Assembly: GCA_029834535.1 (NCBI GenBank)
Contig: JAQMWT010000172.1
Location: 1 to 64,000, forward strand
Direction of reading: 5' to 3'
DNA: 64,000 nucleotides
Source of the DNA: Chrysophaeum taylorii
Lineage: Eukaryota; Sar; Pelagophyceae; Pelagomonadales; Pelagomonadaceae
Every line of letters starts with the position of its first letter. Within the stretch, counting starts at the first letter, position 1. This document shows, one piece after another, positions 6,603 through 46,218 of this stretch. Made by a program: the position numbers and the translations under genes. Below the pieces are notes generated by a model. That model was not told the DNA's origin. It was given only the letters and a program-made list of their open reading frames with translations, and ran no database searches.

Positions 6603-6618
6603 GCCTGGGCCCATAACC
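6603..6618 (-). other. Primer binding site of copia copy A
   Basis: The minus-strand sequence GGTTATGGGCCCAGGC directly follows the 5' LTR. It is complementary to the anticodon stem-loop of eukaryotic initiator tRNA-Met (CTGGGCCCATAACC), not to a tRNA 3' end. Priming by a half-molecule of initiator tRNA is known for Drosophila copia. Confidence 0.7.
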
Positions 6619-15793: not shown

Positions 15794-16124
15794 TGTAGTG
15801 GTTTTCTCAGATACCCGCCCCTCCTGGCCGGACCAGGGGCCTCAACAACCCTTTCTCCCAACCCGAACCGCGGGTGAAACCACCACACGCCCGATCTCAG
15901 CGCAATACCTCACGCCATCTCGAAATCGGACAATCAAAAGAGGGTAATAGCAAGAAGACAGCAAGAAAGCAATACAAATGCCTGGTACATTGGGTTCAGT
16001 GGAAGCGCAGGTGAGGATGTCAAGATGACACCCCCCCCATAATTGCAAGGTCAGTACCAGGGCAACAATCAGGGTAAGTCAGGTGGCAGGCAAGCAAGTG
16101 GGGGAAATGGGCGTTACTGCCACA
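15794..16124 (-). repeat. 3' LTR of the gypsy element
   Basis: A 331-bp repeat whose minus-strand ends are TGTGGCAGTAAC and CCACTACA. It pairs with 27502-27840. A purine-rich tract (AGTAGGGGGCTAT on the minus strand) lies just inside the element, next to 16124. Confidence 0.88.
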
Positions 16125-17489
16125 ATAGCCCCCTACTTGAGATGAAGTCGTCCTCGACTTCAAGGGTGACAAAGGTCACGCTCACGAATGGTACGATAAG
16201 CTCGGTCAGCTACATCAGCAGGAACTTTGTTGCTGCGGAGACGGAAGTTAGTGACGAGGACATCGATTTCATCCGGGCGAAAATCAGTCACACAGGGTTC
16301 ACATCCCTCCATGTTTGGTCGTAAACGTGTGAAGCTACCTCCGTCCGCATCTTTGTATTCTGGTCTTAAGCGTCGCTCAGCCAGAGGCTTAGTAGGATCA
16401 AAGACGCGAGGATCATCGCGCGGTCCCAAATCGGTATAGTAGTGAAGCGCAACTGTATCATTGTCGTGGTCATATTCTTCGTAGACTTCGGCAACATAGT
16501 GGCGCTTCTTCCACGCGTTGGATCGTCCTTTCACCCTTAAAATCACGAACTTACCATGTTTGAACCGGTCGCGGTCCGAAGGTAAATGCAGAGGGGCGGA
16601 AGAAGTGTCGATGGTTGGCACTTTCAGAGGCACAATCTGTTGTACAGATACTACAACCGATTCAGCATCATCGTCGTTGACGTCTTGAATTTCGTAAACG
16701 ACGGGAGAGATCTTTCTAGTAACCATGTAAGGTCCGCGCCAAATGGGCCGTAGCTTGTGGCGCGTCTTAGGCACGAAACGCAGAACATAATCACTTGGGG
16801 AAAACTGGATGTCAATTTGGTGGGCATCATAGTTGAGTTTTTGACTCTCCTGTGCTTTCTGGTGAGCCCGTGTAACGAGTCGACTATAAAATTCAAACTT
16901 GTTCTTAAAGTCCACCAAAATCTGATGACGTGATTGCGGTAGATCACGCTGTTCACTCAAAAGATTGTAATCGGGTGGTAACAGGGGTTGCTTGCCAGTA
17001 CGCATCATGAAAGGTAAAATCTTCGTTCCCGGAATGTACATCCTATTGTACATGAATGACACGTATGGTCGACCAATCTGGCTGACGCTGTTCATCGATC
17101 GCAGCTCGCAAGAAGGCTTTGATGAATCGATTGACACGCTCAGTATGATTACTCTGAGGGTGATACGGAAGGGTAGTACGATAACGTACGTTGAATTGAC
17201 GAACAAACGTGCGAAATAACCTGTTCGCGAACTCATTTCCATTATCCGTGACTATGCACCGTGGGAGACATCCCTCAAGTAAAATCTTGGCCACAAACGC
17301 GTTCAAGATCGAATAGTCATGTTTTGTGTTGATCAGAGCTAATTTCAAGAAATGCGATGCTGCATCGTACATTGCGAGTATGTACGTGTACAGGTCAGCG
17401 CCTCGCAGAGGTCCAATCAAATCCATACCTAGGACATAGCAATCTCCGACGCGATTCGGTTGACAGAGCAAGCCATGACGTCTAGGCAT

Positions 17490-17503
17490 GGTGGATCGAA
17501 TCT
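17490..17503. repeat. LINE target-site duplication, left copy
   Basis: GGTGGATCGAATCT, repeated exactly at 19861-19874. It defines both ends of the LINE and shows the pre-insertion gypsy sequence. Confidence 0.88.
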
Positions 17504-19860: not shown

Positions 19861-19874
19861 GGTGGATCGAATCT
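19861..19874. repeat. LINE target-site duplication, right copy
   Basis: Exact copy of 17490-17503, next to the truncated 5' end of the LINE. Confidence 0.88.
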
Positions 19875-22405
19875 TCTGGCAAATAATGCAAGCATTAACG
19901 AACTCATTAACTGATGATGAGACGTTTGGCCACCAATACCGTTCTAAAATTTGAGTCGCTGTGGAGTCTCGTCCTACATGGCCTCCGAACAATCCTCGGT
20001 GATGCATGGCGATCACACGTTTTCGCATAGACTGAGGGACCACAATAAGACGTTGAGAATCTGAATCATCGACCTCATACAACACGTTGTCATCAACCTC
20101 ATATGGTACGGATGACTGCTCGTCTTGATCTTTCTGTTCAGAGTCGAGCTTTTGTCTGATGCGCTTGCATGTTTCATCCTCGGCTTGTTCTTTCGCTATC
20201 TCATCGAGAGTAATCTCATCCTCCGCTTGATCCGCTAAAGGGAGACGTTCGACGGAGGCAACTGGCTCAGACTCGTACGAGAATTGAGGCGGTTGTACGT
20301 TCTGTCGCGTACTAACTGCTACCATAGCTGCGGTGGGTCCGCTGTCCGTCAGCATAGGTATCGTCACCGAAGAGAAGGTGAAGCAAACTGTTCCAGGGAC
20401 ATCGGTGGGGATTTCTTGGAAAATCGAAAAAAGCTTCATTGATCGGTTCCCCGTCTTCATCGTTCTCGATCAATTTGTCGATAGGGTTGCGCGACAGACA
20501 ATCCGGAATACGCATGCCAGGGGAGCTTCCAGGCTTGTATCCGAGCTCCCGGTCGAACGCAGCAAGCCGCATAGCCCATCGTGCTAACTGTCCAGACGTA
20601 TGATTCGAATCCCGCAGAAACGTTAAATTACGATGATCCGTCTCTAACTTCGTCTGATGACCTTTGATATAAAATTGGAAATTTTCGAGAGCAGAGAGTA
20701 CTGCGAGGAGTTCCAAGCGCCGAGGATCGTACTTCCTCAGCGACTTAGGCACGGTTCGACTCCAGTACTCGATAACTCTCTCTTCGATTCTTTCTCTTCC
20801 ATCGTCGTCAACGACTGGTACTTTTTGAAATAGGTAAGCACCCAACCCATGCGCGGAAGCATCAGTTCGAATGTAAAAAGGTAACGAGTAATCAGGATGA
20901 TAGACGCCCTTCGAAGTGACAATAGCCTCGATGATGGCATCCCAAGCTTCCTGATACTCTTTCGTCCACTTGAATTTTACGTTCGGCAACGTCAGTTGTC
21001 TTAATGGCTCTGCAACTTTCGCAAAATTCCTTATATAACGCCGGCAGAAAATCCCCATTCCAAGGAAAGATCGCACTTGCTTCTTAGGGTCAGCATCCGA
21101 CAAAGTGCCAGGAATTGGCATGTGTCTGATGGCTTCTAAAGACCTTGGTGATGGAAGAAGTCCGTTCGGGGTAGATAAATGACCTAAAAACTCAATGACT
21201 TCTTGCATAAAATGAATCTTCTTGATCTTGGCGCTGTACCCCTTCAAGGCGAGATGGGGAATAACTTGCACAAGGCACTGCAAGTGATTCTCTGTATCTG
21301 CGTGACCGGCGAGAATATCGTCGATATATGCCACGAGATCACGATATAGCCATTTCGACAAGTCAGTGTTCAACTGCTTGCAAAACAAACTTCCGGCTGG
21401 TTTGACTCCCAAAGGTAGACGCATGTAGCTGTACGCTCCCAGAGGACTAGTGAAGGTGGCCACATCTTGTGCATCTAGCGACAATCGTAAATTGTGATAG
21501 CCCCAACGAATATCCAAAGTGGAACGACAAAACTTGTCGATGAGAAACATCAACGCGTCAGCCTTGCTCACACTCGGGCAGCTATCATCCTTGAGCAATG
21601 CATTGAGGCGCCGTAGGTCGACAGCTGCTCTGTAAGCATTGGAAGTGCCAGGCTCAGCACCTTTCTTAGGCAACATCAAAATAGGGAACCCCCATGGAGA
21701 ATTCGCGGGACGAATAACTCCGTCTCGGGTCCACGCTTCAATCTGCATCCGCAAACATTCAATCTTTTCTTTCGACGACCGATATGGCGAGAGTTTTGAC
21801 GCGAGTCGGGTTCTCTTCTTTGAACCGGAGCGTCACTTCGGGTGAATCAACAGGTCTCATCACATCATCGAATAATGCCCACGAATACGAGATTAAATGC
21901 TTCATCATCAGCTTCTCGTCATTATCTAAAGCAGGATGCTCTGTAATACCCAATTCAGTCATCACCTCTTCGACCTGCGCGACGGTCGGAGGGATGACCT
22001 GCATACTCTCCTGACCCGCTAAATGAGGAGGCATCACCGGTAAAGGTTGACCATGTTCGTCGTGAGGCGCGTCCGCCCACGGAACGTCGTACTTATTGAA
22101 ATACGCTGGTCGCTCTTTCGCGGTGACTTCTTCTTCAGCAGTTGCGGAGGGCTTTTTGTCGACTTGGTTGCTCTGCATAACAGCAGTGGCGACGGTGCCC
22201 CCTGCAAAAGATGAAGCCGTCCCGGGCGATGGAACTGAAGGTGGTGGCGGGGTGGTGGGGGCAGCAGCTGATGGTGCAGGACTCGCAGGAGAATAGAGTT
22301 CATCGGGCGCAATCCATGACACACTTCGAGTGGCAGGGTCGAGCGTTGGAATGCGCGACTCTACAGCAAAAGGTGAAAACCGTAGAATATGGTGATCAGG
22401 TTGGG

Positions 22406-24109
22406 CTAGCGTAGTCGTCGCAATATTCCGCAACTTACCCAATTTCGAAGTGAAGGGTCAAACGAATTGTGCACTGCTAGCGCAATCCGCGTCATAGTCG
22501 CGGGTGGCACCATACTGCCAAGCATCTTCATAGCTGCTGTCTCTGAAACTGTCGCACCCCATTGCCACGTAGCAGGAACAATCATAATTTCCTGGTGCGT
22601 CTGCAACGTGAGTGGACGGGTGTTCGAGAAATGAGGTCCTAGGTGGAGCTTATTGCGCGTCACTGTGAAGGCAGAGCCGATAGCCGGGCGCGTAGAGGAG
22701 AAACTGTTCACCATAATGAGCGGGTGACCACCTGTAAATCCCAACGCTGGCCCAAAACGGTCCCTTAAATTCGGTGGTACACGCGACAATAAAGGCAGGT
22801 TCAAGCGAACATTGCACGCAAGTAGGCGTGTGCGAGAGCACAGCAACTCTGGTGTGATACTATAGAAATCGACAATACGCGGCACATAAAATTGGTGATG
22901 CACAAAAGGGATCAATGATGGTTCCTGCTCGAGCGTCCATCGTCCAATCACATAAGGTGCGTTGCGGAAGTTACGCAGGACCCAAGAAGTAATAGTAGCG
23001 CCCTTGCGTGCGTCCCTGTAGTGCAAATTGGCAGTCGATCCATAGATACACGGCGGACTGGCTTGAAAATAAGAATGCTTCCAAAAATCTGAATGTGAAT
23101 ACGACAACACCAAGTCGTATGTACGACGATGAGATTTCCCCAACTCATGCAAAACATAGGGAATCTTCGGAAAATTGAGCTCAAAGGTGGCTCGGGCTTG
23201 AGAACAAGCATCCAAAGCCAGGACAATGCGAAATGAACTGCCATATAGCTCATTGCATCGCCGGATACCCAACGTTGATCCTCCAGCGCCAGCAAAGTAG
23301 ACGACGACAAAGGTGTAGGTGATGGGTATCCAAACCAAGGAGGCGTGCTTAGATAGCAACTCCTTAGCAGTCGCCTCCATCTCCATTTCTGGTGTTTTTT
23401 TCACTTCTTCATCTGGAGGTGGCTGAGGAGGAGGTCTGTCACTCAAGACATCCTCCTCGACTTCATCGTCGTCAACAGCAGCCGTAAGAGTGGCATGACA
23501 CACGTCATCAGTGGCTTCTAGCTGCATGTTGACACATCCTTCATGCGGCATGATCTCGCCTTCGACCACCGGGACTTCGGGGTCGATACCAATGGGTTCG
23601 TCACCAATGTGCTCCACAGCCACATGAACTTCGTTGGGCTCATCAGCGCAATACGATGAATAGGAACCAGCTACAAGGCGGAGATCTTGGAGGAGTGATC
23701 GATAAGGTCGGAATACGTGACCCTTTTCCAGCGGCACATCGCACTCCATCTCCAAGAAGTACGGTTGGCTTGGAATAAGAAATCGAGTACTCGTCACGTA
23801 CGCGAAATGAGGGATGATATCTTCCTCGCCGGGAGAAACGTGATGGTGACTCGCTCTGATACGAATAGACCGCAATAGACTGTCATAACTCCACGGTTTA
23901 CCAACTGGCGTCCAAGTTTGGATATTTCCGTATTGCACAGCAAGCTTAGCTGTCGGGAACATCTGCACTACCTGCGGGGTCGCATCGAATGCATCATTGT
24001 AAAGGACAATTCCATGCTGGTCTTGTGGCGAGGCGGAAGTCCGATTCTTGAGAACTCCAATGGTCACTTCAGAACGCCGAAAAATAGCTCTCTCTGTCGC
24101 ATAATCCAA
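22406..24109 (-). other. Cytosine-C5 methyltransferase-like region of the gypsy element
   Basis: An open frame of 567 codons lies between the gag/protease and reverse transcriptase regions. Its first 260 residues are acidic and of unknown function. The rest has the motif order of a C5-cytosine methyltransferase: VVYFAGAGGSTLGI (motif I), IVLALDACSQARATFELNFP (motif II-III region), YDLVLSYS (motif IV position), WTLEQEP (motif VI position), SRTRLLACNVRL (motif VIII), SAFTVTRNKLHLG (motif IX-like) and AMKMLGSMVPPATMTRIALA (motif X, G-x-VPP). It overlaps the end of the gag frame by about 40 nt in a different frame, a layout gag-pol elements often use. Catalytic competence was not assessed. Confidence 0.75.
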
Positions 24110-27100
24110 AATCGCACCGTCGTAATTCTCGTGCTCCTAATAGTAACTGCCCATTCGTTTGACCAACGAAGAACATGAGCAGCATGGATGTCGTCGGCAC
24201 CAAGGAGATTCGGAGAATGACCCATTCTCGAATAGCAGCTCCCGAACCTCCTGATCCATTTAGAGTACGAATAGTAGGGAGTGGCTGACGATAGATGATT
24301 TTGCCGTCACGATCAAGTTTGCGATACAAGCGGTGATCGATGTAGGGGGAATCAGCCATGCCATCCAAACCGGCAGCGATGATGGAATATTTCGAACCAT
24401 CTAGCGAAGAGATAGCCACAGGCACATACGTCAAAGAGGCGGATCTCGTGCCATCGTACCTTACGGCTTTATTTTCACGATGGTCGGGACCCTGAGTGGT
24501 ATTCAACGCAGTCTGAGGGCAGAAACTCTCGAAATCCGAAGAGATGGAAGGGTGAGCAGCATAACGCTCGGCACAGTCGTCCCTCGGTGGCACTATATCC
24601 ATGGCAACCAAGGTATCTTTTCCCACACGAACAATCGTATACCCCAATTCGTCACGATTATCTTCGTCTTCCAAGAGAACTCTAGATGCGACTCCAGTCA
24701 CTTCGGTACTTTGCTCCTGCTCCTCCACCCATGCATCTTCAGTGATGACCAAAAAGGAAGGAGGTTCCATGGGGTCACCAGGGGAATAGCCTTCTGCAGA
24801 GAAGCTATCATCATCGCCCCCAACCTCGTCATCGTCATACACGTTGCCCTCCATGAGCTCAGAATACTGCACAGTGCAGTAGTCCGCTCGCTTAGTGTCA
24901 TCCTGATCTTCGCCAAGCACTTCAAGCCACTGAGCGGCGACACCATCATTGCGCTGGCTAGGGTTCGCTCTCTGAGACTGTTGCCCTCTACCCGGCGAAG
25001 CCGTCTGCTGTGCCTGACGAATCAAGTTCATCGTGTTGAGAGCCGTAGTCAGATCCTCCAGGCGCACCGAGGTCTGAGCGGTCCGCTGCACTGCGGGCTG
25101 CCTTCGGACCACCTGCTGTTGAGTGCCTGCAACCAAACGCTGTTGAGTGCCTGCAACCAGCTGCTGTTGACCTGCACCTGGCACCTGTGCTGCTGTGTAG
25201 ACCACCTGCGGCTGTTGCACAACGCGCGGCGCTAGCTGAGTCACTGAAGCCTGTCCTGCTGCAGCTAAAAGCGTCCGTCGGTATTGCTCCTGTCCCTCTG
25301 GCGTTGCTGGAAATCCCGCATTCGTCAACGTCTGAGCAGCACGCCTCTTCCTCGAGGGATTGTCCGGCACAGGACACACACCGTTGTCGTGGTTAAAACT
25401 ACCATTCCGGCCGCAACTGAGGCACGTCGTAATTGCTTGACGCGTATGGTTATCTATCCCCTGTGGTAGCCAGGTTCCAACTCCCGAGTCAGTAACATAA
25501 CCAACCCGTTGGACTGGCTGCAACTGCTGCCTCTGCTGCTGCTGCTCTCTCCTCATCCGTGGTGCGCGCTCCTTTCCCTTCTCCTTCTTAATCGCCTCTT
25601 CGATGTTGGCAGTAGGATTGTCTTCCAGAATCTTGGAATTTTGGATGGTCAATTGAATGACATCGTTGAGGGTGAGAGTAGATGCTTTCATATACGGTGA
25701 GGCCTGAGCAAGTTCGACGCTCGTCCGCAAGCGCTCAGAATTGAGACCAGCAATGAAGTGCGAACGGAACGCAGCCGGATCAGTATCGCGACCTGACATT
25801 GCTCTCCACTGGCCGAATTTCTGCACCCATCGCGCGATATACTTATTCAATGACAAATTCCCTTGTCGTAAATTGAACCATTCACATTCAAGCTCCTCAA
25901 CCGTAGCCCGAGGTGGACAAGGAAGCTTCGTCGCCTCTTGCATAGCATCCAGACAGTCCTCATCATGCTGGCGCAACTCTTTCAGTGTGATGGTCCCATC
26001 CTTGTATTGTTTCCACATCTGCGGCCGTTCAGCTTCCCATTTGCGATAAGCTTCCATAGGGGCGAGTTGATACTCGCCTCCAATCACATTCATCGCTATT
26101 GAGGGTTTATCAATTTTGCCTTCCATCATACGTCGCAATTGCATCCACCACGCGTCCACCTCATCACGGTCCTTAGTAATTTGCCCCGTGAGATTCGAAA
26201 ACGTGATACGAGTCATACCAGCAGCTCCCTTCTTGACATCAAGTATCTCTTCTTCGTCACGACGATGCGCCGAACCGGGATCAGTATGATGGTGCGGGGT
26301 AGGCCCCGGTCGACTTCGCGGTGGCTGATCGTCGGTCAGTGCCGATACAGCGTCATCATCGTCGTCGGGCGTAACACGCGTAGCATTCGGAGAGGTTGGC
26401 CGTGCCTCTCGAGCATGCGCCCGCATGGATTCCTCCATCATTCGCCGAAGTCGATCGTTGTCGATCCGCTGTCGCTCCACTTCTGAGCGTTGTTGTTGAG
26501 CGTCGCGGCGGGTGTTCTCAAGTTCACGTATGATCTGCTCCATCTGCGACTGGTACATCTCGAGTCGTTCGTTGATGGTCTGCAGAACCTCGGGGTCGAC
26601 ATCCCCGCGAAAATCTGTCGCTCTCGTATTCGCAGATGGTGGCCTAGGAGGTGCACTCTCCTCTGGTCCACGCATCGCTGTAAACGGTCCGGGTTCCGCT
26701 CGAGATGACTCCGTAGCATTCATCGCACGTTCGTAGGGTCGTGCGTACGGGAACGTCGGCTCACCCGGTCTTGAAGTTGCGTCTGGCGCAACCGTAGCTC
26801 CCCCTTCGCCGGCGCGTGGATCCGGAAGGATGACCACGCTTGGGGGGCTGTCGAGGCTATCAGATGATCTTGCCTCTCTTCCGATGCCACTTTCCTCGGC
26901 TTCCGGGCGTTGAAAGGGCGTACTGAACGGTGTTCTTCCAATAGACGCAAATGGAGTCCCTGCACTGAATCGTTGCAGACGCTCCTGTGCGCCCCGAAAC
27001 CACTGCGGTCGTTCTGTCATTGGCCTCTCTGCCATAACCGCGCTTTGCCCGGATAATAGGCTTAATCCGGACGCTCACAACTCACTTGTTGTATTCTTTT

Positions 27101-27501
27101 CGTCAGACGACAATTGCCGGCAGCCGTCTGACTACTGCGCGCTGTACCGGTGCGCTGGACTTACGGAAGTATTTGCCTTGCGCGTGAAGACTATGGACGG
27201 CCTTCCCGGTGCTGTCGCTCGCCGTCAGGGAGGTGGTCTGCCTCGCGCGAGCTAGGTTAGGACTTATAACAACGCCTTACGATATGCAAAAGTATGCAAA
27301 ATGAGTCGTAGTGACTCCTCTCACCGTTCGATCCGAATCACGTAAAATGAACCCCGCGGCGGTACCCGTGATCCCCTGGATCTTCACCCACAAATGCGTC
27401 GGCTTCGCACTCACTCGACCGTTACGAACCGACTCGCCGCCGAAAAAACATGAGATCGATAGTCCGGGAGTTGGACTATCGATTCCCGTTTCTGAGACCA
27501 C

Positions 27502-27840
27502 TGTAGTGGTTTTCTCAGATATACCCGCCCCACCTGGCCGGACCAGGGGCCTCAACAACCCTATCTCCCAACCCGAACCGCGGGCGAAACCACCACACGC
27601 CCGATCTCAGCGCAATACCTCACGCCATCTCGACAATCAAAAGAGGGTAATAGCAAGAAGACAGCAAGAAAGCAATACAAATGCCTGGTACATTGGGTTG
27701 AGTGGAAGCGCAGGTGAGGGTGTCAAGATGTCAAGACGACACCCCCCCCCATAATTGCAAGGTCAGTCAGTACTAGGGCAACAATCAGGGTAAGTCAGGT
27801 GGCAGGCTAGCAAGTGGGGTAAATGGGTGTTACTGCCACA
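27502..27840 (-). repeat. 5' LTR of the gypsy element
   Basis: A 339-bp partner of 15794-16124 with roughly ten substitutions and a few small indels between them. Just inside it the minus strand reads TGGTCTCAGAAACGGGAATC, a plausible primer binding site for a tRNA 3' end (TGG start). I cannot name the tRNA with confidence. The outer flanks (gggtg on the left, gcggtg on the right) may be an imperfect target duplication. Confidence 0.88.
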
Positions 27841-28161
27841 GCGGTGGAGAGAAATCTGATGCCTCTTTACCCTTATCCGTCCGTTGAGAACGTGATCTCT
27901 TCCTTACCCTTCTTCTTCTTTTCTACACAGTCAATTAGTCCTCTGATTTGTGCTCAAGCACATCATCATGGTCTAGCGCGTCCCGAGGTATGTAGCACTA
28001 TACACTTAACCTTTCTCGTGTAGTTTTCTAGATGCCGCCTGTCGTGTTCTGAGGATATAGGGAACATACCTTCCATTCCCCGAATTAAATACTTCCAGGC
28101 GTTCATGATGAGACGGGATGGTTTCCCAGGTGACTTACCACTGCATGCTAAATGCTCTGCA
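27841..28161 (+). repeat. 3' LTR of copia copy C
   Basis: This is the same LTR as 6619-6937 and 45897-46213 but in plus orientation. It ends ATGCTCTGCA at 28161. Its first bases adjoin the gypsy element, whose insertion point is the polypurine tract/LTR boundary. Confidence 0.88.
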
Positions 28162-33163: not shown

Positions 33164-33168
33164 ATTAG

Positions 33169-33542
33169 TGCAGAGCATTTTTTAGCAAGCAGTGGTAAGT
33201 CACCTAGGAAACCATCCCATCTGTCTTTAAATGTCGACTGCTAAGAGGGGGGGGTGTGCATCCCGTCTGTCTTCGTGTACGTCTGGAAAAGGTTAATTCG
33301 GGGAATGAAAAGGTATGTTCCCTATATCCTCAGAACATGACAGGCGGCATCTCGAAGTACACGAGAAAGGTTAAGTGTATAGTGCTACATACCTCGGGAC
33401 GCGCTAGACCATGGTGATGAGCGTAGGCACAAATCAGAGGACTATTTGATTGTGTAGAAAGGAAGAAGAAGGGTAAGGAAGAGATCACGTTCTCAACGGA
33501 CGGATAAGGGTAAGATAAGAGGCAGCAGCAGATTTCTCTGCA
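33169..33542 (-). repeat. 3' LTR of copia copy B
   Basis: 374 bp with TG...CA ends. It is longer than the other LTRs because of about 55 extra bases near 33225-33285. The polypurine tract CTCGAGGGGG (minus strand) adjoins it at 33543-33552. Confidence 0.9.
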
Positions 33543-36500
33543 CCCCCTCGAGATGTCTTAAGCGCAAGGTGCGACTGTAGGGCATCTCTTGAGAAAGATG
33601 ATGATGAAGAAAAAAAAGGAAGGAATACGGTCTTGATGATCACAGAGGTCACATACGAAGCATCAAGAGTGTAGGAGGGTCTTAGGACTTGGACTTGGTG
33701 GAGCTGAGAGTCGATTTGACCCCTTTGAACAGAACATTAAGAAACACAGATACAACAGACAGTGAGTTAGGATTATTAATCATCGTCAGCTTCTGCTGTA
33801 AGGTGGTGAACACCAATAGCTGAACGATGTGGTGCCAAGAGAAGGGTGAGTGCAAGTAGAGCATTTAGTATGGATGGCGATAGAGAATCTAGTTGAAAGG
33901 TGTCCAGTTGGTTTTTCTAAAAAAAAGGTTGGACTTAGCCAACGAAGAACGAAGATAGAAGAGTCTTCAGATTCACATGAGAGCGGACGGAATGCTCTGA
34001 AGCATGAGAGCAACTTGTCACGTAGATGAAGGAGGCGATCGTCCGGGGAGGAGTAGTTGGTAGCATGTTGATCATGAGCAGTGAGTATTAAGCGAGACAA
34101 CAGCTCTGTGATCTTGTACAGTGTATAAGTAACACGTGGGTGTTGGCTGTAGGAGGGAAGAACCGGTTCTCCAGGGAGGTGTTTCCTGGAGTTGGTCGAC
34201 TTGTTGGCACAAGAAGTCGGAATCAGCAAGCGAAGCAGAAGGCGTAGGTAACGGTGGCGAAGATATCTCCCGAGTAGCGTCTAGCGTGGAGTGTGAGTAG
34301 TTTAACGTCGTTTCGGTCAACGTTAAAAAAAAAGGAAGGGGTGCAGGAAGCCTTAATGTTCTGCCTGAACATAAGTGTGGCCGAACATTACATTCCGGAG
34401 TAATAGCGGTTCTGTATCATCAGAGGATGATGCGTAGTTGTTAAGATGTTGTACACGCGATCAGATAACAGTATGAATCACATGGTGGTATTTGGTGGCT
34501 TGAACACATAGCCTGAGTTTTAAGAGCCTGTGTTTGCTCGAGCGTTACAAGAAGGCTAAGATGCTCCAGGTGCATCTGAGTAATAAGTGGAGTCTGTGGC
34601 TGCATCGGTTACTGATAAGACTAAGTGAGCAAGTGACGAATGTTGCGTTAGATTTCTGGTCAAGAGCATATGTAGCTCCTTTGGCAAATGATACGTGCGT
34701 ATGATGGTTGCGCGTATATGACCAGCTGAGCACCCATTACAGGAAGGTTGGAGGGAAGTAGCATAACGTGCACATACGTTAGGTTGTATGGGCGCCTGAT
34801 CGGCGTTGTGACAAGCACAACAAATGTTAGCGGTGATAGTTGAGATGGGAATATGACCATTCTTCTTGTGGTCATCTGTGTTAAGGTGACTCAGCACTTC
34901 AGTGGGGAGTTCACTAGGTGCTTGTGACTTCGAATTATATGTGGTAGAAGCAAGAAATGTAGGATGACAGGATGAAACGTTCACGTTTCCTCTGTAGCAG
35001 CCAATAGACGTAATAGCAGGAGCAGCTTCCCAAAATGTAGTAATGGGTAGGCGCATGGATATGAACGTCGTAAGTTCCACGAACAGTAAAGAGTCAGCAG
35101 ATTCATATATCGAGTTGAGTGCCGTAGAGATTTCCGCTCGCATAACAGAAGAGAGAAAGGGCGTAGCAGGAGTACAGAAGCTCTCAGAACGAGAGAATCC
35201 TCGTTCAATCAGGGCAAATCCATGTTGAGGCCATCGCTGGTGTCGGTGAGACAGTAGCAGCCTGAGAGGTAGTAGGAGTGACAGTGGTTATGGGTTGTCG
35301 CTTTTGAAACAACTTGAGAGAGATGCCACGGCCACGGGAGTGTCAAGAAGACATGAACAACACTTGCCCGTGTACAAAAAAAAATGTGGCAAGAGAAGGT
35401 AAGGCCAGGGTTAGTTTAACGACGTTGCGGTCACTGGGGTTAGGCATCTTCAATCCTGCAAAGGATTGTCGTGAGAGGCATGATGCATACCGAGTAGAGA
35501 ACGAAAAGTGGAGAACTCAGCAGCAAGTGGCTTTGTAAAGCCATCCGCCACGTTCAGCTTGCCGGGAACATGATGGACTCGTATTTTCTGAAGAGATATG
35601 TACTCACGAATCTTAAACCATCTAGTCGACAGTGCCTTGGATCGAGAGGACCCATCTGGGTTATTAGAGGTGTGAACAGCGGCAGCATTGTCAGACAAAA
35701 GAGGTAGGCTTCTGATGAAACGCATATCTTCAGCAATTGGGTTGTCATTGTCATCGAAGTCAACAGGGTCAGCGGTGTTCTCACCATTAGCATTATTGAC
35801 GTAGAAGGTGGGGTTGACGACAAAGGAGAGTTCCAACAGCAGCTTGCGTAGCCAAACAGCGTCATCAGCACAAATACTGAGGGCAATCAACTCAGCTTCG
35901 TGAGTTGAGCAGGAGACAATCGGTTGAAGTTTGCTTTTCCAACCAATAAGGCAGTTGAAAAGATAGAAGACAAACCCGGTGGTAGATTTCCTATCTTCCT
36001 GTGCTAAGGAAGGGGCATTGTCAGCGTCAACCATGGCAACTAAGGGGTCAAACTGTCCAGTAGATACATCCTGCGGTTGGTAGTCGACCACAGTGGATAG
36101 ATCAATTCGATTAGCGGAGACAGTGCGAAGGTGAGCTTCAATGGCATTACCTTTAGGGTGAAACCAGAGGCGAAGTGAGCGGTTTTCCGGCTTCTTGAGG
36201 TAGCGAAGCAAATGCTCTAGCATTTGGACGTGAACATACGTGGGTGCATGCATACCACGCGAACATCTGCCCAAGGCTTGCGAGAAGTCAGGTCTGCAGG
36301 CAACTTGCATGAACACCAGCTTGCCAAGGAGGGTGGCAAAGTGCGAGTTGATGTACAACTCTGTTTCAGTGCTGGGAGTGCCATCTTTATACTTGAAGGA
36401 CGATGACATAGGATATTTGAGCGGGGTCAGTTGCTGCAAGACTGGGTGATCAGCGAAGAGTTCATCCAGCTTGGCTTGCACATCCAGAGAAATGGAGCCG

Positions 36501-39500
36501 TCAGATGTGCGACACACACGCATGCCGTTTGTGGAGGGCATCCTGTAATTCAGTACGAAGAGGGTCGTCATTGGACACAATAACAATGTCGTCTACAGAC
36601 AGACTGCATACGACGAACTTAGCATGTGCGGATACTCGAGCATATAGGCAAGAGTCCGAATGCAGGCGTTTGTAACCAAGGCTACGGAAGAAGCCGTCTA
36701 TCTCTTTGTTCCAAAGGGATGGTGATTGCCGAAGTCCATAAAGTGACTTCAGCAGTTTCGGTAGACGTCGGCCCTTGTACTTAGCGTCATCGGGGTCGAT
36801 AAGCTTGATGCCGTCTGGTAACTGAACATAGACATTGGCATCGATGTCAGACTGAACGAAGGCGTTCGGGACGTCTGCATGGTAGACAGGCAATTGCTTG
36901 TATGCTGCAATAGCTAGTAGTACCCGGATTGCGGTCATGGTGGCCATGGGGCTGAAGGTACCAAAGAAATCGGCGCCAAGAGATGCTAGGAAGCCACGTA
37001 GTACGAGGCGAGCCTTGTGCTTAACGTATTTGCCTGCAGAGTCTGTTTTAATCTTCAGCACCATCTTGCTGTCAATAGGACGAGAGACACCGTCGGGTAA
37101 GGAAAGTTTGAAGCAGCCAAAGCGGATAATGTCGTGGAGTTCCTTGGCGATGGCCTTGAGGTAGGCGTGCCTGTTTTCAGGCGACAAACCGTGGAGGCAC
37201 TTAAGTTTATATTCGTCAATGGAAACGTCCGCTTCTTGGACCTTATATTCGTCAGGACCAACAATGGCTGGTGAATTATAGTTTAGCGACGTTGCGGTCG
37301 AGGCAGTGTGCGCAACTTCGGGATAAGCGGAAACAGCGTCAGTAGGAGTAGTAGGGGCAGATTCCAGTTGGATATGGATAGTAGGGTCGGTACGTAAGAC
37401 CTGGGTGATAAACTCTGTAGAGACCAGAAGGTATTCCTCCAAGTCAGCCAGAGATGCAGAAGTAGCGCCAAACTCGGATGAGTTGTGATCAATAAAGCTG
37501 GTCGGCGCCAGGTACGTAAGTGCATATTGTAAGGAAGAAGTCCCGAAGGCAGCAGCGTGTTCAGTGAACGCAGATAAAAAGGGCTGAGGAATAGGGCACG
37601 TAGGTGAACCATCAGCAGTTAAAGGGTTGCAGCTGGGATGCTGGATGCGCACTTGGCGTGGGCGAAGTAACCATCGACGTGCGGGTAGCGGGCAAGTAAG
37701 TCAGTGCGCAACGGGAGAAGAAGACGAGCTAACAACGCATGTCCCCCCTCTGAGCAGATAGCAGACCAGAGGATACCACCACGGAGATGAAGGGCGGAGA
37801 GGGCGGGAGACTTGAACGTAAGAAAGTGGTGGCGAAGATCCCAGCGGAAATCGGCGAGCTTGCCACCAGCGGCTTTGTAAGCACCAATAGTAGACGCTTG
37901 TAACCGGGCTCGGATAGTTTTCATAGAAGTGGCCTTGCGAGTGTTAGGCTGTTTGGAACCTGGGACAAGAATGAGGTCATCTTGTGCAAAAGGTCTTTGT
38001 AAGAAGGAAGCAAGGGCGGCGGTGACATAGAGCCAGATTCGTCGGCGGTAGCGTCAGAAGATGGAGAAGAGGCCGGAGTAGGGGACGAAGAAGGAGGAGC
38101 TGAAGGAGGTGCGGAGTGCCCCTCTGAGGATGAGGAGTCCTTGTCTCCCTCTGAATGACATGGTCTTGGATAGTGGTGTGGGGTGTGAGCGAGAAAGGCG
38201 CGGAAGGAGCGTGTGGCGGAGGAGCTAGTTCAGGATCAGGAGTAGGATGCTGCAACATGTAGAGGAATTGCAGCTTGGACGAAACACGAATTTGTCCGTT
38301 TTCAGGGTTGAGGACGACGTCAGCGAGATGGTCGACGCGTGGGGAGACGAGCGGGTTTTGTGCGTTGGCGCAACAGAGATACAGATATTTGCGGCGGCAC
38401 GGTTCCCACTTGTGGTGTTCATGGGGCTCCAATAGGAGGTAACATTCAGCGCCAAAAATCTTGAGCATATCGTGTTGGGGAGTGCTGAGTTGGTTGTAGA
38501 GTAGCTGTTGCGGACTCAGAATAGCATGATGAATGCGCTCGAGCGTGGCGTTCGGGAGAAGGTTATAGCTTTGAACGGTGTGTATCACCGCCCATGGGAA
38601 CATGATAGCGGGTTCCACGATCTTGGCGCCACGATAGTGAGCATTAAGGAGAGAACGACGGCGAGTTGAGGAGGCGGAGGCGATGAAACCGATGGCAGAC
38701 TCAACTTCAAAGTTAAAGTGGTGCATGTACGGCGGGAAGGCAATGAGTTGAATGCCCTTATCGACGCGGTACGGGGAGGTAATGTGCTGGCTAAAGTAAG
38801 GCTTGAATGCATCGGAGTAGAGGGTGCGCATGTGCACATTGAGTTGTGTACGACAGAAGTCATACACAAAATCCAGAGCTCCGTGGCGTTGGTGGTGCGT
38901 GTAAAGTACACCAAGAGGAATTTCGAAATAAGTTCCTTGAAGACGATGATATGTGTGAAGCCTCCCCATTCGGATGGGATGGTCACATAGCCGCCGTCGC
39001 ACGCCCAGACTTCACCGGCTTTATGGGTTTGCTCAAAGAGGCTTGGTCGCATTGAAATGCTTGTGCGGGTGGCGCTTGTTGTGTGCGATGCAGTCGGTGC
39101 ACAAGTCGCGATATGGTATGTCAGAAGCAGAGAATCCAGGGCGAGCAAGTACGTTGGGGCCTTGGCAGCGACGTTGTCGGGGCAGTGATGCACCCGGTGA
39201 AAGCGATTAGCACGTTCTTTGGCATTGAGATATTCGGTGGATCCGTGTGCGAGGGACTTACGAGGAATTGGATGAGCGGGGATGTGCCGTTTGCGCCGAA
39301 CATCGAACTTGAGTTCGGTGTCTAAGGCAGTGGAAGGCGGTGCGTCGTCATCCTGGTGCACAGCAGGGTCACTTGGAGGTGCATCCTCATTATCACGAGT
39401 AGCGAGAGTATCTTCGTAGGACGACGATATATAGTTTAACGACATTTCGGTCAAGCAGTTGCTGGAAATAGACATCATAAAAGATTGTGCCAAAGACAAG

Positions 39501-39551
39501 GTATCTGTGCTGCACATGGTGGAGGCTTGGTCGACGGTCATGAAATTGGGA

Positions 39552-42359
39552 TCACATATATTGGAGGAATTTCAGGATTTCTTCGTCAGCAGTATGTTGG
39601 AAGGTAGGGTCCAACATAAGGGATTTAATATCGGCGACGATGAGCGAAAGGTGCTTGTACAGAGTGCTGTACGTACCGGCAGGCAGAGCATTGCTGAGCA
39701 TGTCACAGCAAAGGTCATGGCGTAGAGACAAGAGGAAAGATTCCTGTTGTTTGGTGTGGTTGTTAGCACGAATCAACTCCGGTCGAGTGGGGTAGCGTAA
39801 TTTCCCGTTGCGAGGGTCGAGTAAAATCATATTGGCATACCCTCGGACGGTTGGCAATGGAGCAAGCATTGAGTGGATTTTAGAGCCGAGCTTGCGGTCA
39901 CTTCCACGAAGGTACCCTATATAGCGACTATGAGATAGGTGATGATCTTCCAGAGCAAAAAGAGAATCCTTGTAATCGAAAGAGTTGTCGGTAGCCTTGT
40001 AGATAAGGCAGTCAGGCATCACGAATCTAGACACGAGGTTTTGTATGGCGGTGCCATAGGTTGTAGCGGAGCCAACTTGGGGAAGGGCTTGGACTATCCA
40101 CAAGTAACCCATAAACGGCTCCAGATATATGGACCTGTCCCGGTCGCGGGGGATGTCGGAAGCAGTGAACGTATACGTGCTTCCAAAGGCGTTGATGGGG
40201 GTCTTTTGGTTGGTGGTGGCGTTCTCTATGGTGAGGTTGCCGTCGGAATGGTGGCCACCAGTTAAGAAGTAGGAGTTGTGTGATGTTGATGAGGTTGTAA
40301 GTAATAACCTGTGTGACGGTTGGTTAGTTTCGAAAACGGTTATGTAATAGGACACGGGAGTGGGTGAGTTAGTATGTAAGCTTGTGAACAAGTTATAGAG
40401 GATTGTAAAAATCTTGACTTGTATAGGATGTGTTGCATTGGGTAATGGCTCCATAGAGGAGCGTTTAAAGCACAACTGATGATAAGTACACTCGGATTGA
40501 ACAGAGTGAGTACGTTGCTCGTGAGCCTGCTGTGAGTGAAGGCGAAGTAGTAACATATTGAGGGATTCAAGGTCAGCCATAGTAAGATGAGCAGAACCTG
40601 TGCGAGAGTAAGGTGCAAACGTTTTAGGAATGGATATGTATGGAGGATCAGGGAACACCCGGATCCAGTCTTTGGTTAGGTGGTTAGGTAGCCAAAGGCG
40701 CTTGGGAATAGCTTGTAGACAAGTGCAGGCCAGTAAGTTCACTTACTCCAAATCTCTAACCCCAGTAAGTTCACCTGGTCCCAGAAAGTTCACCTAGTCC
40801 CAATCTCTAACCCCAGTAAGTTCGGCGTAAGCCCACTCGTGCTCACATCCACTCACCCCACTCTCCTTCGAGCCCGTCGCTCTCACCTCCGCCAATCTAA
40901 GCTGCTTTGATCCGTACACGCCGCTAGCCTTTGCGTTCACTCTAAAAACCCCAGTAGGTTCACTTGGTCCCAGTAAGTTCACCTGGTCACTCAGCTCACC
41001 TAGTCCCAATCTCCAACCCCAGTAAGTACACGTGGTCCCAGTAAGTTCACCTACAGTGCGCGTGTAGACGCCGGGAGGGGGCTTATCGGTATTGCGCAGC
41101 ACGTGTGGGGTAGGGTGGAGTCGTCGACCCAGAAGAGGATATCCTCGGGGTTGCCGATCGACAGAGAGCCACGTAGAGCTGGACGTGGCAGAAGACGGGC
41201 TTGGGAAAGAGGACGCCGACCTCGCGGGGCGTCTGGCCCTGGCTCTTGTTGATCGTTTGGCGTAGGCGGGCCTTAAGCGATACAGGTTGGAGGAGCCTCG
41301 GTGACAACGACACGATCGATCATGTATCTGGTAACGTTGCAGTGGCTGTGCGACGGGTCGAGGTTGCGAAGACATTAAGCTCGCGATCAAAGCCAGCATG
41401 CCGTTGGTTGTCAGGGAGTTGAAAACTCTACTGTAAAGAGCGAGGCGTCGTCTTCCGACCCAGCCTAGTCAGCCGAAAAGAACTCCGACGCCTCGTCTCC
41501 GGGAAAAAAAGGCCGCGGTCATGCGCGCGTTGTCAGCATCGACAACATCGTTTCGACGGGGCGTGAGAATGGAGCGCTGAAAGAGCCGCCGCGGGTCGTG
41601 GAAATAGTCTGCGAGGTCGCCGTAGACGGCTTGGAGGATCACTGTCTGGCTCTCGCGCCTACCTGATCCTTACTCTCGCGCCTACCTGATCCTTACCCTA
41701 AATCGAGGGACAAACAGACAGACAAACAGACAAACATCTGTCGATTAGTAGTTAGGATCATCCACGATCTTTAGGAAGGGGCGTGGATGGAGGATGGGCC
41801 ACGATGATAGTTTAATTGGTCCAGTAGAATATCTGCGGGCGACGCATATCCACCTTTCTCTAGATTGGTAGTCGCCACATAGGTAGGTCGGGAGCCTATC
41901 AACAACATCGACACAGTAATCAAGGGTAGTATAGATAAGGTTGGCCACTGTGATGTGGTCTTGATGACAGTACTTATGCGGAGGCGTCATCTCAGCCAGT
42001 AGTACCAAGGGCTGGAGTAGCTTGATGACAGACAGCATGCTGTCGAAAAGAGAATCGTCCAGCAGACTGTGTAAGTCTTCTGACTTTTGTTGTTTTAGTA
42101 AATTCCTGTTTGTGCAGGGAGGAGTGATCTCGATTATATCACAATAGAATGAGCGCCTTTCCTCGGGTGAGATTAGGTGAAGATGGTTGATAAAGGCGGG
42201 GAGAGATTCAAATAATAGTACAGTAGGAAAACGGTGGCGTAACATACGAACAAGCGTATCATCAGACTCAACAACAACTTTTACATTGATATTTAAGCCT
42301 AAGTCATTAGTGGCTTGAGACAGGAACGCCGGAGTTGACAAACCAGAACAAAGTAACAT
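39552..42359 (-). other. Cytosine-C5 methyltransferase-like region of copia copy B, split by a Helitron fragment
   Basis: The N-terminal part (42359-41758) shows LLCSGLSTPAF (motif I), KVVVESDD, EITPPCT (motif IV), LLAEMTPPH (motif VI position) and GDYQSRERWICVARR (motif VIII). The part beyond the Helitron fragment (about 40712-39552) contains a variable recognition-like region and ends with PLPTVRGYANMILLDPRNGK and DMLSNALPAGTY, like motifs IX and X. Copy A has the same region without the Helitron. It lies between protease and integrase. Confidence 0.75.
40713..41757 (-). mobile_element. Helitron-derived fragment inserted in copia copy B
   Basis: This roughly 1.05-kb segment is absent from the aligned position in copy A. 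Minus-strand translation shows pieces of a Helitron/Pif1-type helicase: LQAVYGDLADYFHDPRRLF and QRSILTPRRNDVVDADNAR (about 41500-41640), then LKARLRQTINKSQGQT and VGVLFPKPVFCHVQLYVALC (about 41180-41280), the last helicase motifs. Stops and a missing N-terminus show a decayed fragment. Its 3' side (40714-41060) is built of scattered copies of CCCAGTAAGTTCACCTGGTC. The terminal TC and CTRR hallmarks could not be fixed with certainty, so the ends are approximate. Confidence 0.7.
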
Positions 42360-45300
42360 GACAGAGGGTTTGCGGAGATTGGACTCTTGTGAGAGAAAAA
42401 TTGGTCGTGCGAGTAGTCAACTCAATGGCTGCGTATTTTGCTGAACAAATTTGTTCTGTTTCCAAAGATTGAGAACCAAAGGGCGAATCCACGGCCGATC
42501 TGGTAATCTCGTATGCCAGTAGGTTTTCGTATCGTAGTGCAATTGTTGTATGCCTTAATCCCTAGTCAATGATGATCAAATGAGAGCAAGGGCCAGCCGC
42601 TTTCGCGCGAGTAAGTGATGCGTAAATTAGCTGACAATAGAGTGCCGCATGCTTTGGCTCAGCGATCGTTGAACACGGTGGTAAGATTGGGTCTGGTTCC
42701 ATTCGAGCATGCTCAGGATAGCGAGATGTCGGTCATGCACTGGTTGAAGACATAAAGCGAAGTCGATCTTAACGTAGCCAATTTGTGGATGATCTGGTAG
42801 GGGAATAACGATGTTGCGTGTTAACATCATGTGTGATGCCCGTTGTTGTCCTGTTGCCGTCTGAATAACAATCGGAGCGTACGTAGAGTCCAATGGTATT
42901 ATATGATTGGGTATTGCGAAATCGTAGGTGGACATCAATGAGATGGTAGCACAAGAGTCAAAATATAGGAAAGAGCAATGTGGAGGGACACTGTTTACCT
43001 TCATGTAGTTGGTGAGGAAGGCGTTTTCCGAATGTGGGCAAGTAGTGGAGAGGCTGGCTGTAAAGAAATTCTTCAGCAATAACAGATTCGTTGGAATAAT
43101 GATCGGTTGAACAGGTGGTGATGGCTCGTCAGCCTCATCAGCCATGCCGTGCTTTTCGTCAAATGACGATAGAGAGGTGTGATCGGCATCCCTTTTGGTT
43201 TCGGCTTGTGGTGGTAGGTTGAGGGCAGATTGGACCTGTGAAGATAGCGAGGACAATAATGCTGGTGGTAAAGCCGAGATGGCGGAAGCGGTAAAGAGGT
43301 TAGACACAGTATTGGAAGGATTACCCTGTGTGTTTGTAGTAGGAGGAGTTGTTGTTGGGGTGGGAGCAGTAACGACAGTATGGTGTTGTGGCTCTACGTA
43401 GTTTAACGACTTTTCGGTCGAGGATAGATGAACGTCTACATCATAAATGATGTCTTCTGCAAACATGAGCTGTTCGTTTAGACGAAGTAAACTACTGTTG
43501 TCCTCAGTAGATGTTGTTGACAGGATATCGGCTGATTGTAGTAGGGTCTCAAATAACTTGTTGATATTCTGTTGTAGCTGAGCCGTGGTATCATTATCTG
43601 TCACATGCTTCGTGAGTTCGCTACACTGCTCTCGCAGGGTGTTTAAGGTGTGGTTTGTTCGATCTAATAATTTCATGTTAGACCGAGAGGACCTGTCAAA
43701 AGTGCGGGGGTAAATTGGACGGTCATGGGACTGTCCGGCAGTTTTCTTGGTGACGTAAGAATCACCAGGACGATAATACGATAAATCGCTGCGAGAGAAA
43801 GGCTGGCGAGCATCATTAGAGTTGCGCAAGCGTCTAGCGTTAACCGTGGAAGATGTACCTGGTTGGGACGAAGTGATGAAGGCGAGTGTGTTAGCAGTTT
43901 GAGTCAGACTTTTGTCCGATGAGTCCAAAGTATGCGTAATGAGTAACTTTGGCTTTGGTTGAGATGATAAACCTTCGACATAGGGTTGCCAAGAAACAGG
44001 GCGTTCTAAGCGTCTTTTGTTCGACCCGTTTGATACGACATTGTAAAGGTCTAATGCGTATTCTAAAATGTAGCTTGGGTTGGTAGGGTGACACAATCGT
44101 TCAGCTTCTGGTACAGGTCGAGATGAAGATCGGGTTTCGTACATATAACACCAATCTACCCAACCACGATCGTAGCGGTTGTTGCTGGTATTATCGGCAT
44201 AGTGCCGATGTATCTCTTCATAGATTTCTGCAAAGAGTGCCAAAGTCGAATTGAAGGTCAGTCTCTTCCTGGTTAAGTTGGTAAGAGATTTGCCTAAATG
44301 CTAGGACAGCTTCGATAAATACATGGACATACCAGTTAGGATTATAAACAACAGAGTTAAATTGCTGTTTCAAGTAAGACACATCAGTAGTCGTAACAGA
44401 CTCGTAGTGATTAAAGGCGATGAGCATAATAGCTCGAGCCTTGTTGGGTAAATAGCTTTTGTTGTATATCTCGTTGATGGCGGGCCAGGCCGCAAGTGCC
44501 GGTTTTCCAACACTTTCAGGCCGCAAGTGCCGGTTTTCCAACAAGATTGAAGTAAGTATGTAAAAAGGTAGCGTACGTGTTCTGGTAAGTGTGCCAGTCA
44601 GCTGCAGTTAACGAAAACATGGTAACCGGGGCACGAACACAAGAAGAAAACATTTTATAAATAGCAAGGCTTTTGGCTCATACATTTAGCAAAGAACAGA
44701 AAGTAGGCCGGAGGTGAAGCGTTTTGAAATGAATCGGCTTTACAAAACGCAGATTTTGTCGGCCCGTTTCGAGCATACATAGGGAAAAGAACAGAAAGTA
44801 TAGTTCCGTTAATGTCCTGTGACTGACTGACTGACATTTCCCAATTAATTATTGTGGATCGAAAGCTAGTGCCTTCGGGTGCGCGCGATTTAAGGTTCGT
44901 TCCTCTTCTAAGAAACGAGCGTTGATTTCTGGACGTAATGCCTTGACTTCATAGTCGTAACAGACGGTAGTTAGCTGAGCTACTTCTGCATCAGGTAAGT
45001 GGGGAAAAGCTTCGTTGGTGAAATGCCATTCCTGATACTCTCAGGGGGTAACTCATCAACAGTTAAACGGAGATCAGCAGCCCTATCGGTCTTCCATTCC
45101 AGGAAAACGCGATCGAGAATTTGATTCCGGAGGATTTCGTAGTCCTTGCATGACCGAGTATATGCTTCATACGAGTCGTACTCGAGGAAAGCATCGGCAT
45201 GACTAGACCGTAGTAATTGCTTGATATGCTTGATTTGCAAGGATACCTTGCGGGGTTCTGAAGCTGGAAGCGGTTGCCCTCATTGAGGAACTCAACTACA

Positions 45301-45880
45301 GGAGCTTCGAGCTTCAATATATCCGCACCTGTGATCGCCTTAGGTGCGGCTCGTGCTGCGTGTTCTGCCATAGCAGTTGACGGGGAACCTGTGGGTTCAG
45401 TCACGCAGTTGACACTGTCTAGACATTCTAAGGGGGTCTGTCTATCGGTGTCTATGTACACTCATCGATTTTTTCGATGGAAAATGTGTCTATATGACGA
45501 CTGTGCAAGCTGTGAGTCCAGAGTAGTGTCGCTAAGCGTAGTCACTCAGGCAGCTGGTTAGTTTTGGTGCTCTCAAGGAGCTTGTTAAGTGCATTGCCAT
45601 TGAATGTACGAGTGGACGTACCCAAAATATTCCATAACATGTGTGCAAGAGTACAGGTAGTTAGCCAATTACACACACATCAACATTGACATGACAATAC
45701 GATGCTATGAACAGGTGCACACAAGGTTACACGATCACGTGTGCAAAAAAATATTATATACAGCCCAATGGTAATGGCGATATATTGACAAGCGTGTCAC
45801 ATGTCGAGGCTGAGCTGGCGCGGTAACAGCCCAATACCCATAGGTTACGTGCATGTTGGCACATGGTTTCTCAGGGACCC

Positions 45881-45896
45881 GCCTGGGCCCATAACC
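45881..45896 (-). other. Primer binding site of copia copy B
   Basis: GGTTATGGGCCCAGGC on the minus strand abuts the 5' LTR. It is identical to the site in copy A and complementary to the anticodon arm of initiator tRNA-Met. Confidence 0.72.
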
Positions 45897-46213
45897 TGCA
45901 GAGCATTTAGCAAGCAGTGGTAAGTCACCTGGGAAACCATCCCGTCTCGTCGTGTACGTCTGAAAAAGGTTAATTCGGGGAATGAAGGTTATGTTCCCTA
46001 TATCCTCAGAACACGACAGGCGGCATCTAGAACTACACGAGAAAGGTTAAGTGTATAGTGCTGCTACATACCTCGGGACGCGCTAGACCATGATGATGAG
46101 CGTAGGCACAAATCAGAGGACTATTTGATTGTGTAGAAAGGAAGGAAAAGGGTAAGGAAGAGATCACGTTCTCAACGGACGGATAAGGGTAAGAGGCAGC
46201 AGATTTCTCTGCA
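45897..46213 (-). repeat. 5' LTR of copia copy B
   Basis: 317 bp. It starts TGCAGAGAAATCTG and ends CTAAATGCTCTGCA on the minus strand. It is flanked outside by ATTAG, which matches the other end of the element. Confidence 0.92.
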
Positions 46214-46218
46214 ATTAG

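Follow-up and report, generated by a model that had tools for sequence, protein, structure and literature searches.

A probable C5-cytosine methyltransferase-type domain in the Pol region of Copia retrotransposons from the pelagophyte Chrysophaeum taylorii

A group of Ty1/copia (Copia) retrotransposons in the pelagophyte Chrysophaeum taylorii carries, between protease and integrase in the Pol region, a domain that is very probably of the C5-cytosine methyltransferase type, as judged from its motifs and from profile comparisons. The elements were analysed in a 64,000-nucleotide stretch of DNA, here called the window (contig JAQMWT010000172.1 of assembly GCA_029834535.1, positions 1 to 64,000 of the forward strand), which holds two copies, A and B, and in related loci of the same genome. 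The window family is named copia1, and copia2 (L055, L056) and copia3 (L060, L061) are other Copia families of this genome. The window also contains a Gypsy element with a methyltransferase of its own, which went unnoticed in the first-pass annotation of this DNA.

Methyltransferase motifs of the Copia domain

The hallmarks of C5-methyltransferases are a catalytic Pro-Cys in motif IV, a Glu in motif VI, QxRxR in motif VIII and an Asn in motif X. Motifs I, IV, VI, VIII and X were all found in this order on the minus strand of both window copies (Table 1), exactly where the first-pass annotation had placed motifs I, IV, VI, VIII and a IX/X-like sequence. The copia1 domain reads TPPCT in motif IV, AEM in motif VI and QSRERW in motif VIII, so the catalytic residues are kept. 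The Cys of motif IV, the Glu of motif VI, and the Gln and two Arg of motif VIII are present in 35 of 35 copia1 N-half copies, and the motif X pattern is preserved in 32 of the 34 stretches that cover it. The copia2 domain has TLPCQ, VENVPP and ANAVP, and its motif VIII is SKxR instead of QxRxR. Across eight sequences from the three Copia families, the invariant positions include T, P and C in motif IV, E in motif VI, and G, D and R in motif VIII. Motifs VIII and X are separated by 374 residues in copia1 and 345 residues in copia2.

The region 39552-42359 had been annotated as a single gene. The motifs do lie inside it, but it also holds about 1 kb foreign to the domain, because of an insertion at about 40717-41757, and both window copies are broken. 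Copy B is interrupted by this insertion and by frameshifts, and copy A has a stop codon between motifs VI and VIII in addition to frameshifts. Short tandem repeats of 19 and 23 bp occur within the copy B insertion. Copy B (L009) was excluded from the residue-conservation, shuffle and dN/dS (nonsynonymous to synonymous substitution ratio) analyses.

Place of the domain in Pol

The claim that these elements belong to Ty1/copia was confirmed in copy B by an integrase ahead of an RVT_2-type reverse transcriptase, long terminal repeats (LTRs) with TG..CA ends and the target-site duplication CTAAT (Table 1). In the genome, 104 copia1 reverse transcriptases were listed; for 53 of them a copia1 methyltransferase is listed no more than 9 kb upstream on the same strand, and for none is there one downstream. 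The distance between the two is 2980-3100 bases in 31 of the 53 pairs. This pairing used 150 of 151 methyltransferase rows and 104 of 106 reverse transcriptase rows, two fragments being omitted. Family members lacking the region, which the first-pass annotation named as a refuting result, did not appear in the three Copia families opened (150 of 1670 RVT_2 candidates scored); the remaining 51 of the 104 listed copia1 reverse transcriptases have no listed methyltransferase upstream.

The methyltransferase and the reverse transcriptase of one copia1 copy (C42) were both reported in an open frame of 1691 codons, and one copia2 copy (C96) has an open frame of 1952 codons across the domain. A single copia2 open reading frame (ORF) has the order protease-like motif, domain and integrase (rve 17.8 bits, below cut-off). 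The upstream same-strand pairing and the shared long frames indicate that the enzyme belongs to Pol. The domain is a regular part of Pol in a group of Copia elements, with the order protease, methyltransferase, integrase and reverse transcriptase.

Homology to C5-cytosine methyltransferases

The identity of the copia1 domain is supported through copia2, which matches the Pfam family PF00145 with 32.6 bits (E=7.3e-8), above the curated cut-off of 22 bits. Against the superfamily model TIGR00675, copia2 scored 33.6 bits, below that model's own cut-off of 100.65. The local alignment of copia1 with copia2 scored 84, and none of 1000 shuffles equalled it (shuffle mean 42.6, sd 6.1). When the halves were compared separately, 1 of 1000 shuffles was as good for the N-half and 0 of 1000 for the C-half. 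In BLASTP between the two families, the IX-X end matched with E=0.002 and the IV-VIII part with 0.044, and hhalign with enlarged profiles gave E=0.0079 with a low probability of 5%. A single copia1-copia2 alignment (E=6.9e-20) extends from the C-half of the methyltransferase into the integrase. The third family, copia3, also bears methyltransferase motifs, and the single copia3 N-half tested falls short of PF00145.

A joint profile of four copia2, three copia1 and one copia3 sequences was searched against the PDB. Cytosine methyltransferases made up the top 14 of the 17 listed matches (best E=1.2e-5), and eight of these 14 were versions of HhaI. The copia2 profile alone reached a best E of 0.025, and therefore the addition of copia1 and copia3 improves the methyltransferase match.

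Several results weigh against this identification. The PF00145 check suggested in the first-pass annotation, which copia2 passes, is failed by the window family alone (12.8 bits, E=0.078); the diverged copia1 member L057 scored 12.9 bits (E=0.073), and the long copia1 ORFs L051 and L052 gave no PF00145 match at E<=0.1. The canonical FxGxGG form of motif I does not occur, its place being taken by LLCSGLSTPAF in copia1 and IIAGGLHQEGF in copia2. With the smaller first profiles, hhalign gave weak results (E 0.031 with a probability of 1.6%, and E 0.36-0.48). Neither a copia1 profile of five close copies nor a copia1+copia3 profile finds a methyltransferase in the PDB. Predicted structure models were poor, with mean predicted local distance difference test (pLDDT) values of 40.3 and 31.5, and Foldseek with the pLDDT 40.3 model found no match at E<=0.001, its top entries being non-methyltransferases. 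DNMT3A/3B entries begin at rank 30 of that search with E of about 1, and the strand and helix order of the model resembles the class I methyltransferase fold, without a significant fold match. As a single sequence, copia2 also found no methyltransferase in the PDB.

If the motifs matched by chance, the domain would be some other Pol spacer. The PF00145 score of copia1 below the cut-off and the failure of its own-family profile to find a PDB methyltransferase would fit such a spacer, but it is a highly improbable explanation, given the collinear homology to PF00145-positive copia2 and the first ranks that methyltransferases take with the joint profile. On these same two grounds, the homology of the copia1 domain to proven C5-methyltransferases appears to be established indirectly, and the earlier claim of a methyltransferase-like domain between protease and integrase is supported by the same route.

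Outside the genome, none of 8000 candidate proteins of similar length matched the copia2 polyprotein at E<=0.001. Of 7999 candidates compared with the copia2 domain profile, one matched at E<=10 (E=0.18), and its source labels it a DNA cytosine methyltransferase. Three scans of viral contigs gave no confirmed relative. Within the genome, the reverse transcriptases of copia3 and copia1 are 54% identical and those of copia1 and copia2 are 38% identical. The Copia methyltransferase looks old, because families whose reverse transcriptases are 38% identical share the domain.

Selection on the domain

The median pairwise dN/dS of copia1 falls with rising synonymous divergence (dS): 0.235 at dS < 0.05 (136 pairs), then 0.164 and 0.135, 0.082 at dS 0.4-1 (63 pairs) and 0.073 at dS > 1 (2 pairs). 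These bins take 530 of 595 pairs, since pairs with zero or saturated dS were dropped, nearly all of them with L057 or L058, and the deep pairs depend chiefly on L052 and window copy A. In copia2 (8 sequences), the median is 0.144 at dS 0.4-1 (21 pairs) and 0.124 at dS > 1 (4 pairs). The copies used were mostly best matches to the query protein, which somewhat favours low dN. The low dN/dS of the deep pairs and the kept catalytic residues indicate that the domain is under selection. Purifying selection acted during element replication, rather than chance preservation.

Selection by itself is no proof of catalysis, and the domain could be a dead or weak enzyme retained for a structural or nucleic-acid-binding role in Pol. 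The unusual motif I and the Pfam score under the threshold agree with this explanation. It is nevertheless unlikely, because the catalytic residues of motifs IV, VI and VIII are kept in every copia1 N-half copy and the core of the same motifs is invariant across the three families.

A Gypsy element with its own methyltransferase

The Gypsy ORF of the window has the canonical motif I YFAGAGG, together with SPPC and GSMVPP, and exceeds the PF00145 cut-off (Table 1). A related Gypsy ORF (L053) scored 33.0 bits. In the Gypsy element L054, a single ORF contains a protease-like motif, then the methyltransferase, then the reverse transcriptase. The median dN/dS of the Gypsy ORF (13 sequences) was 0.449, 0.319 and 0.243 in the shallow bins and 0.112 in 12 deep pairs (dS > 1); these 12 pairs all include L054, and the values span the whole 567-codon ORF, beyond the methyltransferase alone. 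A PDB search with the Gypsy profile gave no methyltransferase match.

The Gypsy and Copia enzymes showed no detectable kinship. In local alignment, 318 of 1000 shuffles were as good for copia2 and 195 of 1000 for copia1, and hhalign between the profiles gave E 0.66. A single shared capture is therefore not supported, and the two enzymes may go back to two captures or to one very old capture.

At 17590-20460, within the Gypsy element, an ORF of 956 aa contains an integrase H2C2 domain followed by a second RVT_1 (residues 474-702) in a GC-rich stretch. A non-LTR element may have inserted into the Gypsy integrase here.

Host methyltransferases and CpG composition

The Hsp90 of the genome points to a stramenopile host, probably an ochrophyte close to pelagophytes or dictyochophytes. 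It is 94% identical to two records, one of them from MMETSP, and 80-83% identical to proteins of Dictyocha, Parmales, Heterosigma, brown algae, diatoms, Nannochloropsis and oomycetes; two plant fusion proteins score highest in bits but share 71-72% identity. A six-frame search, which can overlook short exons, gave no alveolin match, and together with the Hsp90 relatives this spoke against the chromerid Vitrella as host.

Two host genes of the superfamily were recognised. One is a DNMT5-type gene (L062, 68-6322) of 2085 codons in one open frame, with PF00145 (61.9 bits) and SNF2; SC replaces the usual PC in its motif IV. The other is a Dnmt2-like gene (L001) with PF00145 at 69.6 bits and a CFT motif, which we take to be a Dnmt2-type signature. 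Both lie outside retrotransposon ORFs, as far as these were read. They share superfamily and genome with the Copia domain, but they differ from it in their long PF00145 matches and, in DNMT5, in the SNF2 part. DNMT5 is a maintenance enzyme in fungi, and Dnmt2 is an RNA enzyme elsewhere.

The genome list of PF00145 holds 57 matches, of which 29 overlap copia2 loci, 4 are copia2 by alignment (L003, L005, L007, L008), 2 are the host genes and 22 are unclassified. It was drawn from 123 scored out of 474 candidates and did not include the Gypsy ORF 22406-24109; as introns also break matches, a host de novo enzyme may be missed. The overlap with copia2 used 73 of 81 copia2 rows, omitting eight short pieces of already listed contigs.

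The enzyme might instead act chiefly in trans, on the genome of the host, shaping its methylome or silencing. High copy number would suit this: in the genome, the copia1 N-half has at least 151 matches (150 scored of 947 candidates), the Gypsy ORF at least 90 (77 of 1048) and the copia2 domain at least 81 (71 of 789). These are lower bounds because of the unscored candidates, and some of the matches are pieces of one copy. The finding that the only host-type genes recognised among the classified PF00145 matches are DNMT5 and the Dnmt2-like gene points the same way. Work in trans is still quite improbable, as a location in Pol between protease and integrase better suits action in the particle.

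In a broader proposal, de novo cytosine methylation in the host genome would have been handed over to retrotransposons. Three or more Copia families and a Gypsy lineage, whose selected Pol domains show no kinship between the two classes, would start marks on new copies, and DNMT5 would keep them. This proposal is improbable.

The composition of the Copia elements counts against a strong, lasting CpG mark. Copia copies showed no CpG-specific decay, with a CpG/GpC transition ratio of 0.97 (526 non-independent aligned stretches from 29 loci, above 1 in 47%), and their third codon positions were without CpG excess (small counts). In Gypsy, the ratio was 1.23 (75 stretches, 12 loci, above 1 in 69%), which is mild and ambiguous, C-T changes being higher still before T. 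The observed/expected CpG was 0.95 in copia1 loci versus 1.25-1.31 in three host stretches, and the elements had higher observed/expected TpG/CpA than these stretches. Some decay could explain the lower CpG of the elements, but GC content differs as well. The methyl mark may lie in another context, or be transient, well repaired or on RNA.

Methylation of RNA, either the genomic RNA of the element or its tRNA primer, would account for Copia copies free of CpG-specific decay, and the host Dnmt2-like gene, whose CFT motif presumably marks it as such, illustrates that the superfamily includes RNA enzymes. The CFT triplet is absent from the copia1, copia2 and Gypsy domains, and the long VIII-X stretch could be a putative DNA target-recognition part; both points make an RNA substrate improbable. 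RNA methylation has been raised before, for the SymbioLINE-Dnmt enzyme, which showed no activity on DNA in yeast (de Mendoza 2018, PMC5890265).

Proposed mechanism

The most likely mechanism, tentatively and by analogy with the one proposed for SymbioDIRS, is self-methylation of the complementary DNA (cDNA) by the Pol-borne enzyme. The domain would be made within Pol and then released, or retained as a fusion, in the particle together with reverse transcriptase and integrase. There it would methylate cytosines in the freshly made double-stranded cDNA of the element, either ahead of integration or during it, and host DNMT5 could then maintain the mark. Candidate benefits to the element are protection of the cDNA, mimicry of resident methylated DNA and reduced harm to the host. 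Considered jointly, C5-methyltransferase identity and cDNA self-methylation are somewhat favoured; taken separately, the identity is very probable and self-methylation is slightly less than an even chance.

Comparison with known retrotransposon methyltransferases

Retrotransposon DNMTs are known in LINE, DIRS and Gypsy elements, and the same study reports Symbiodinium Copia elements without a DNMT domain (de Mendoza 2018, PMC5890265). According to this source, retrotransposon DNMTs are able to methylate CG de novo, and the tested SymbioLINE enzyme did not. Three of its elements can be compared with those described here. KnitGypsy-Dnmt3 of Klebsormidium nitens is likewise an LTR element with a C5-DNMT in the Pol ORF, several copies and purifying selection (its Ka/Ks, the equivalent of dN/dS, is < 0.2), but it is Gypsy rather than Copia, its enzyme is of the Dnmt3 type and its host is a charophyte. 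The Gypsy element of the window is its nearest counterpart. SymbioDIRS-Dnmt3 of Symbiodinium also has the DNMT inside Pol, and according to its authors it carries out de novo CG methylation and, as they propose, methylates the cDNA; it differs as a DIRS element with a tyrosine recombinase in a dinoflagellate host. SymbioLINE-Dnmt of Symbiodinium resembles the present case as an orphan DNMT lineage across many retrotransposon copies, but it is non-LTR, has the DNMT in a separate upstream ORF and is reported with CpG depletion.

One sentence of a 2025 article (PMC12344493) places DNMT3 members in 'LTR Copia and DIRS' elements, citing the work of de Mendoza, and names no stramenopile there. The available parts of PMC9998398, PMC12477816, PMC5348765 and PMC3145265 contain no mention of such a stramenopile element; PMC12477816 describes a brown-algal DNA transposon that carries a different (N4/N6) methyltransferase. 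In the literature searched, which excluded most subscription papers and all bioRxiv preprints, no title or opening of an abstract dealt with a C5-methyltransferase in a stramenopile Copia. No clear prior description was thus found for this LTR class and host group, and a stramenopile Copia carrier with the enzyme between protease and integrase looks new.

Features of the window

Coordinates are collected in Table 1. Apart from the elements themselves, ORFs at 28545-32357 and 52578-54155 have Otubain-like, IBR and trypsin matches and are probably host genes or gene fragments.

Table 1. Retrotransposon features of the window, with the evidence for each.
Feature	Position	Strand	Evidence or remark
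Copia copy B, whole element	33169..46213	-	LTR pair, TG..CA ends, 5-bp target duplication
Target duplication CTAAT flanking copy B	33164-33168 and 46214-46218		identical on both sides
Copy B 5' LTR	45897..46213	-	LTR pair alignment (93.8% identity, 260 columns; ends TGCAGA..TCTGCA)
Copy B 3' LTR	33169..33542	-	LTR pair alignment
Copy B gag-like/protease open stretch	42630..44300	-	sequence and position; Pfam search, nothing above cut-off
Copy B protease-like motif FLYFDSCATISLM (DSCAT motif)	42933-42971	-	sequence only
Copy B methyltransferase N-half (motifs I, IV, VI, VIII)	41748..42416	-	motifs and profile comparisons
Insertion of about 1 kb splitting copy B methyltransferase	40717..41757	.	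missing from copy A and L051
Copy B methyltransferase C-half (long VIII-X region and motif X)	39555..40742	-	
Copy B methyltransferase motifs	I 42324-42356, IV 42108-42125, VI 41979-41996, VIII 41850-41876, X 39681-39704	-	
Copy B integrase zinc-binding motif (39173-39196) and rve core	38588..39571	-	Pfam rve match, E=1.2e-4, 22.7 bits, under Pfam cut-off 32.6
Copy B integrase C-terminal part, SH3_retrovirus	37980..39011	-	Pfam match, E=4.8e-5, 23.6 bits, under cut-off 27
Copy B reverse transcriptase, RVT_2	36504..37700	-	E=1.5e-38, 133.3 bits
Copy B RNase H region	35453..36592	-	position and sequence only; Pfam search, zero matches
Copia copy A, truncated by contig start (= window start)	1..6938	-	
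Copy A methyltransferase motifs	X 1634-1657, VIII 2768-2794, VI 2897-2914, IV 3026-3043, I 3242-3274	-	
Copy A protease-like motif	3909-3947	-	sequence
Gypsy element, LTRs 15794-16124 and 27502-27840 (91% identical)	15794..27840	-	LTRs; RVT_1, RT_RNaseH, Integrase_H2C2
Gypsy methyltransferase ORF	22406..24109	-	PF00145 29.5 bits, over cut-off 22
Gypsy ORF motifs	I 23279-23299, IV 23048-23062, VI 22919-22939, VIII 22826-22846, X 22502-22522	-	
Separate Copia LTR, adjoins Gypsy LTR	27845..28161	+ (opposite orientation)	matches copy B LTR region, 91% over 321 columns

Biological meaning

Cytosine methylation is normally directed at transposons. Here, within a single stramenopile genome, two unrelated LTR classes maintain selected domains that are probably of the C5-methyltransferase type, which extends to stramenopiles and to Copia a pattern known from dinoflagellates and charophytes. 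That these domains are under selection argues for a benefit to the element. A genome that combines DNMT5 with enzymes encoded by elements would allow the start and upkeep of new methylation to be studied.

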